The position numbers were made by a program, and so were the translations under genes. The notes under the pieces were generated by a model, which was given only the letters and a program-made list of their open reading frames with translations, had not been told where the DNA came from and did no database searches. DNA of 64,000 nucleotides from Barnesiella sp. WM24. GTDB lineage: Bacteria; Bacteroidota; Bacteroidia; Bacteroidales; Muribaculaceae. Location of the stretch: positions 245,102 to 309,101 of the forward strand of contig NZ_SPPC01000003.1 in NCBI RefSeq assembly GCF_004570975.1, in the 5' to 3' direction. Positions 37,058-45,837 of the stretch are shown piece after piece. Within the stretch, counting starts at the first letter, position 1, and every line of letters starts with the position of its first letter.

Positions 37058-37088
37058 TTGCAAAATTCAACAATATGAATTAACTTTG
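37058..37088 (+). promoter_or_regulatory. Promoter of the 37.1-kb RNA
   Basis: TTG at 37058-37060, 20 bp, then TAACTTTG at 37081-37088: exact spacing and full -7 match, among the best promoters in the window. Confidence 0.75.
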
Positions 37089-37093
37089 TGTTA

Positions 37094-37360
37094 TAACAAT
37101 GAAGGCAAGAGAGCCGAAGATATACCACATCAAAGTTGATTGGGAAACTCATCAAATTTATATGAAATACCGAGACAAGCTTAGTCGACTGATGGCGGGC
37201 CCCGACCGCTTTTCGGAGCGGTGGCTAATAACCCAGGCGGATTACAAAGGTTGGCGAGCACTCAAATCCTGTCATTCGGAGTTTCATCGCATCCTTTGGT
37301 GTGGTCCTATAAAGAAGAGACTGTCGCGTAAATCATTTACGTTGCAGTCTCTTTCTTTTT
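37094..37360 (+). ncRNA. Candidate structured non-coding RNA
   Basis: The 459-nt gap between yccF and the OmpA-like gene holds a strong promoter, about 265 nt of transcript and a terminator. Long-range pairing is visible: 37124-37135 with 37294-37305 (12 bp, one G-U) and 37144-37150 with 37279-37285 (7 bp), enclosing a hairpin at 37205-37222 (ACCGCT/AGCGGT). A frame open from ATG 37099 has no stop before the terminator and runs on through two terminators into the OmpA gene, so it is unlikely to be a real protein, and that ATG lies only about 5 nt after the expected transcript start. It could be a 6S-like or other regulatory RNA; I recognise no known family. A short leaderless peptide gene remains possible. 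Confidence 0.55.
37315..37360 (+). terminator. Terminator of the 37.1-kb RNA
   Basis: AAGAGACTG at 37315-37323 pairs with CAGTCTCTT at 37345-37353, with an inner stem CGTAA/TTACG (37327-37331 with 37337-37341), followed by a T-rich tract to 37360. Confidence 0.85.
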
Positions 37361-45703: not shown

Positions 45704-45721
45704 TCTAAAGATAATCAACAA

Positions 45722-45796
45722 TCCCTTCGTCGGTGTTAACCGTGTCAGGTTCGGAGGGTATAATCTCAGCACGTCAAAATGACGGCACCCCTTTGT
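45722..45796 (-). promoter_or_regulatory. TPP riboswitch (THI box)
   Basis: Read on the minus strand the element has all hallmarks: GGGGTGCC, GCTGAGA (45770-45764), ACCC, GAACCTGA (45752-45745), GTTAACACCGACGAAGGGA. It lies between the promoter and thiD and would repress the operon when thiamin pyrophosphate is plentiful. Confidence 0.95.
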
Positions 45797-45805
45797 CTAT
45801 GTCTG

Positions 45806-45837
45806 CAAATTTAGTAATATTAAATCGTCTCTCCAAA
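45806..45837 (-). promoter_or_regulatory. Promoter of the thiamin operon
   Basis: On the minus strand TTTG at 45837-45834, 20 bp, then TAAATTTG at 45813-45806. Start of transcription near 45799 places the riboswitch at the very 5' end of the message. Confidence 0.8.

Follow-up and report, generated by a model that had tools for sequence, protein, structure and literature searches.

The window, that is the whole 64,000 nt stretch of Barnesiella sp. WM24 DNA analysed here, carries a gene for a small, stand-alone structured RNA on its forward strand, located between yccF and an OmpA-like gene, both of which lie on the opposite strand. Upstream is a promoter of the Bacteroidetes housekeeping (sigma-ABfr) type at 37058-37088, in which TTGC at 37058 supplies the TTG at -33 and is separated by a spacer of exactly 20 nt from TAACTTTG at -7 (37081-37088). 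Transcription would start at about 37092-37095 and end at an intrinsic terminator at 37314-37360, a strong hairpin followed by a run of T, and T-rich hairpins are found at the same place in relatives. The terminator stem (37314-37354) has a folding z-score of -6.4, with none of 200 shuffled sequences being equally stable. The predicted transcript, running from the promoter to the terminator, is about 265 nt long and contains a core of about 190 nt; folded as a whole it gave z = -3.8 and was equalled by one of 200 shuffles. A preliminary description made from the sequence alone had proposed this -33/-7 promoter with its 20-bp spacing, the terminator and a free-standing, structured RNA of some 265 nt with a regulatory role, and its anatomy proved to be right in nearly every detail.

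The covariance search against Rfam which that description had suggested assigned positions 37123-37312 of the forward strand to the family RF01693 (Bacteroidales-1). The full model (1-179) was matched with 119.9 bits and an E-value of 2.5e-19, far beyond chance; the threshold for membership is the curated gathering score of 60 bits, and the model was built from other genomes. The conserved apical helix and the invariant motifs of the family are present as well. All other Rfam matches there, among them mir-6 and MicX, were far below gathering scores and chance. The Bacteroidales-1 motif was listed by Weinberg et al. in 2010 (PMC2864571), and an annotated copy exists in Porphyromonas gingivalis (PMC5771137). 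The RNA therefore belongs to a described class, and the earlier idea that it might represent one still undescribed in this group was not borne out. The window RNA is an ordinary member of this already known family. There is no difference of kind between the two, since the match is full-length and far above the gathering score and includes the same motifs and apical arm; the promoter, leader hairpin and terminator of the window copy lie outside the model.

RF01693 is present as a single copy in the own genome. Among the 61 genomes searched, 40 harbor one copy each, 39 of them above the cut-off, and a DNA pattern derived from the core was found in many named Bacteroidales, including Phocaeicola vulgatus, Parabacteroides distasonis, Dysgonomonas mossii, Barnesiella and Porphyromonas. 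A typical Bacteroidales copy was also seen at locus L059 (JAMPBP010000007.1) of a genome labelled Clostridiales, which is probably mislabelled or a mixed metagenome bin. The motif TAnnTTTG lies upstream of all 39 RF01693 copies from the relatives and the own genome, with TTG at a distance of 20 in nearly all of them. Among further homologues it was detected in 77 of 80 cases, 66 of these 77 having TTG at exactly 20. In a B. thetaiotaomicron study (PMC7366714), the consensus for the primary sigma factor of this phylum is given as TAnnTTTG preceded by TTTG. Because the promoter is kept in 39 of 39 and 77 of 80 copies, sequence conservation is strong evidence that the gene is a dedicated transcription unit. 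In the window, TTG-N20-TAnnTTTG occurs six times (0.76 expected). A promoter of this pattern at 45806-45836 on the reverse strand is located directly upstream of a TPP riboswitch (RF00059, 63.6 bits) at 45705-45802 of the same strand.

The core is enclosed by a closing helix of 12 pairs including one U-G, formed by 37124-37135 and 37294-37305 exactly as first drawn. In 39 sequences, 93.1% of the cells of this helix are paired and 8 of the 12 pairs show changes on both sides, with 22 double-change cells compared with 6.6 in shuffles; slid versions of the helix were all far worse. With 114 distinct sequences, double changes extend to all 12 pairs (136 cells), and the main apical helix shows them in all seven of its pairs (261 cells). 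The compensatory changes whose lack would have spoken against a structured RNA are thus abundant. Since the closing helix covaries and is left unpaired in the RF01693 model of Rfam, the published structure is sharpened at this point. The apical arm (37179-37259) consists of the helix 37179-37194/37245-37259 with the invariant motifs AUGGCGG and GGAUUACA, and of a variable inner hairpin at 37205-37222. The 6-bp stem of the latter (37206-37211/37216-37221), noted at the outset, is present in the minimum free energy (MFE) fold of the window copy; across homologues it is only 63.9% paired, yet it varies compensatorily.

Between closing helix and apical arm lies a central region which is nearly invariant across homologues. 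Its 5′ side (37136-37178) contains GAAACUC (37144-37150) and AUGAAAU (37162-37168), while its 3′ side (37260-37293) contains CUCAAAUCCUGU and GGAGUUUCAUC; the GAGUUUC found here can pair with either of the two 5′ motifs. These pairings are mutually exclusive and both are mostly maintained. One of them, the 7-bp pairing 37162-37168/37281-37287, had already been recognised inside the closing helix and is part of the MFE fold. The extended rod pairing 37162-37173/37276-37287 is kept in 85-93% of cells with weak covariation and the alternative pairing 37144-37150/37279-37285 in 95-98% with little covariation, because the bases hardly vary. This is too little variation to decide between the two, and a refolding switch between them is therefore only a suggestion from the sequence. 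The putative central bubble can also be represented as an almost uninterrupted rod, which counts against the 6S reading considered below.

Two readings of the locus do not involve a free-standing RNA. Translation from the ATG at 37099 could be considered, with the transcript serving as mRNA for a small protein, since this frame is open to 37497; it thereby runs through and beyond the terminator, for which reason a protein had been regarded as unlikely from the beginning. In relatives, 26 of 45 cores contain stops in all three frames, core lengths and indels are not multiples of three, and the helices covary. The stops and the non-triplet lengths rule out a conserved protein, and no conserved frame, as would have argued for one, was found in the relatives; a coding function of the window copy has a negligible probability. 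The position between yccF and the OmpA-like gene might likewise suggest a cis-regulatory leader, which we rule out for practical purposes because both neighbours are on the other strand and synteny is not conserved. Among 118 other Bacteroidales copies, as far as flanks were available, the YccF side is shared by one and the OmpA side by none, and no conserved same-strand downstream gene was found next to the copies of the relatives. In addition, the RNA has its own terminator. As the neighbours differ in nearly all relatives, the proposed comparison of the corresponding intergenic regions flanked by yccF and the OmpA-like gene was inapplicable.

6S RNA is a widespread regulator which imitates an open promoter and occupies the complex of RNA polymerase and the primary sigma factor. 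On release it serves as a template for product RNAs and then refolds. A rod-like resemblance to 6S-type RNAs had been suspected for the window RNA, and it is supported by the covarying stems, the promoter, double matches to the family 6S-Flavo (RF01685) and a location between zapA and rny in divergent homologues. The architecture of the functional class, a closing stem, a large conserved centre and an apical arm, was found across the 114 distinct sequences. The core, promoter and terminator predicted here are also consistent with the core of about 160-200 nt and the own housekeeping-sigma unit which characterise the class. RF01693 is described in Rfam with the words “6S-Bacteroidales RNA suggested”. 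The canonical 6S family RF00013 (E. coli ssrS, B. subtilis bsrA) is similar in size, closing stem, conserved centre and apical arm; in sequence and structure, however, its model has no match to the window RNA, neither at the site up to E = 1 nor anywhere in 41 genomes (the own and 40 relatives). 6S-Flavo shares the core motifs AAACUCAAC and GGAGUUU with the window RNA. Its model detects neither the site nor anything else in the own genome, and the 6S-Flavo genes examined are located between zapA and rny, whereas the window copy stands by itself behind a promoter of its own.

The connection to accepted 6S RNAs is provided by divergent Bacteroidota. Hits of RF01693 and RF01685 coincide in place and strand at three loci of the same class (L033, L034 and L035) and one of the same order (L055), with 37.5-41.1 bits for RF01693, which is below the gathering cut-off, and 33.1-96.8 bits for RF01685. 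Homology to an accepted 6S family thus comes through four loci at which RF01693 scores below gathering. Two further weak RF01685 matches were detected within the order (L031 and L032). All of these loci, together with nine 6S-Flavo loci, lie between zapA (PF05164) and rny (PF12072) on the same strand; Pfam was run on ZapA of L033 and L055 and on RNase Y of L033, and the remaining neighbours were identified by tblastn. In E. coli K-12, zapA is directly followed by ssrS, so that the divergent homologues of the window RNA adjoin zapA as the canonical gene does. Because of the shared location, the shared motifs and the double matches, common descent of the RF01693 RNA with 6S RNA is very likely. 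Furthermore, a dRNA-seq study of B. thetaiotaomicron (PMC7366714) describes “the Bacteroides 6S RNA” and product RNAs that fall into two classes. The main text of that study gives neither a sequence nor an Rfam accession for it, and this 6S RNA is likely to be RF01693.

Members of RF01693 could also be genuine structured sRNAs without 6S action, working through another protein partner or by basepairing with mRNAs. The failure of RF00013 to detect the window RNA, the cautious Rfam wording and the fact that Weinberg et al. 2010 (PMC2864571) left the function open fit such a view. Against it stand the divergent homologues which match 6S-Flavo at the same place in the order zapA-6S-rny, the zapA-ssrS order of E. 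coli, the presence of closing stem, central region and apical arm, and the product RNAs reported for the Bacteroides 6S RNA in PMC7366714, and we consider it improbable. With high confidence, the window RNA can be regarded as the 6S RNA gene of the host bacterium, which belongs to the Bacteroidales and to judge by named relatives to the Muribaculaceae, and as a member of RF01693.

If so, the housekeeping-type promoter would give rise to the transcript of about 265 nt ending at the intrinsic terminator, the leader would probably be trimmed, and the core of about 190 nt would fold into closing stem, conserved central region and apical arm. Judged from known 6S RNAs, 37136-37178 would form the 5′ side of the central bubble, and the rod may imitate an open promoter and be bound by RNA polymerase together with its primary sigma factor, which would keep the enzyme from promoters. 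When nucleotides are plentiful, the polymerase would copy the 5′ side of the central region into short product RNAs, after which the RNA would refold and free the polymerase.

The leader upstream of the Rfam model carries a hairpin of its own, GGC-AAGAGA-GCC at 37104-37115 of the forward strand, whose loop is conserved and whose stem covaries in part of the Bacteroidales copies. Hexaloop hairpins of the type (A/G)AGAG(A/T) with varying stems were seen between promoter and closing stem in about one third of Bacteroidales leaders (L009-L020, L025, L028, L065, L081, L109, L118, L132 and others). In about 670 kb sampled, AAGAGA with a perfect stem of at least 5 pairs is almost confined to 6S leaders. 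The own assembly has no 16S rRNA match, and rRNA leaders were therefore inspected in relatives: a perfect AAGAGA hairpin was not encountered before 16S rRNA in two of them, and ACATTGAAA-like stretches are present there. Boxes of the sequence YWTTGAMA occur in 18 of 114 Bacteroidales leaders, compared with about one in shuffles and five in equal-length upstream DNA, and most 6S-Flavo genes examined have a GTTCTTTAAAA-like box about 50 nt before the model start (L031, L032, L035, L036, L039, L040, L042-L045). We take these boxes to resemble boxA antitermination signals. Such boxA-like sequences (CATTGAAA, GTTCTTTGAAA, GTTCTTTAAAA) stand just upstream of 6S RNA genes both at the loci just listed and in the leaders of L003, L054, L072, L085, L095, L098, L106, L108, L110, L126, L129 and L130. 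Among the papers searched, none combines boxA, antitermination and 6S RNA. The conserved AAGAGA-type leader hairpin and the boxA-like sequences of other leaders are perhaps new. It is a rather speculative idea that Bacteroidota 6S leaders carry transcription antitermination signals of the rRNA-operon kind, namely a boxA-like GTTCTTTAAAA or CATTGAAA and also the AAGAGA-type hairpin in Muribaculaceae and some neighbouring groups, by which 6S RNA would be made by Nus-modified polymerase.

Some further repeats were observed in the own genome. Of five occurrences of the 12-mer GGCAAGAGAGCC, one is in the 6S leader, and the reversed control gave none; its other contexts (L174, L175, L177, L178) look unrelated, namely before an ORF, after another promoter and near a tRNA-like stretch. 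Two identical copies of a 39-base promoter lie about 1.1 kb apart on contig C22 of G000 (196367-196405 and 197444-197482; L181 and L182), followed by nearly identical leaders and then by ORFs that begin alike (MAKI...). This pair is apparently a recent tandem duplication.

Concerning the history of the gene, zapA and rny are still adjacent in the own genome, and the gap between them has no Rfam match to a 6S remnant. From the adjacency and the lack of a recognisable 6S RNA it appears that the gene moved from this site and gained its own promoter in the clade of the host. A hairpin CCGCACT...AGTGC-TTTTT was observed before rny (L193 1388-1450 and the zapA-rny gaps of L195 and L197-L211) and is kept in most relatives without 6S RNA in this gap; it may be an attenuator or a relic of the former 6S closing stem.

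The gene itself is ordinary and is to be expected in most bacteria of this group. The value of the locus lies in a clean check of a reading from raw sequence and in additional evidence for a single 6S lineage comprising Bacteroidales-1 and 6S-Flavo, once located beside zapA as in E. coli and later relocated to free-standing sites in the main Bacteroidales clade.
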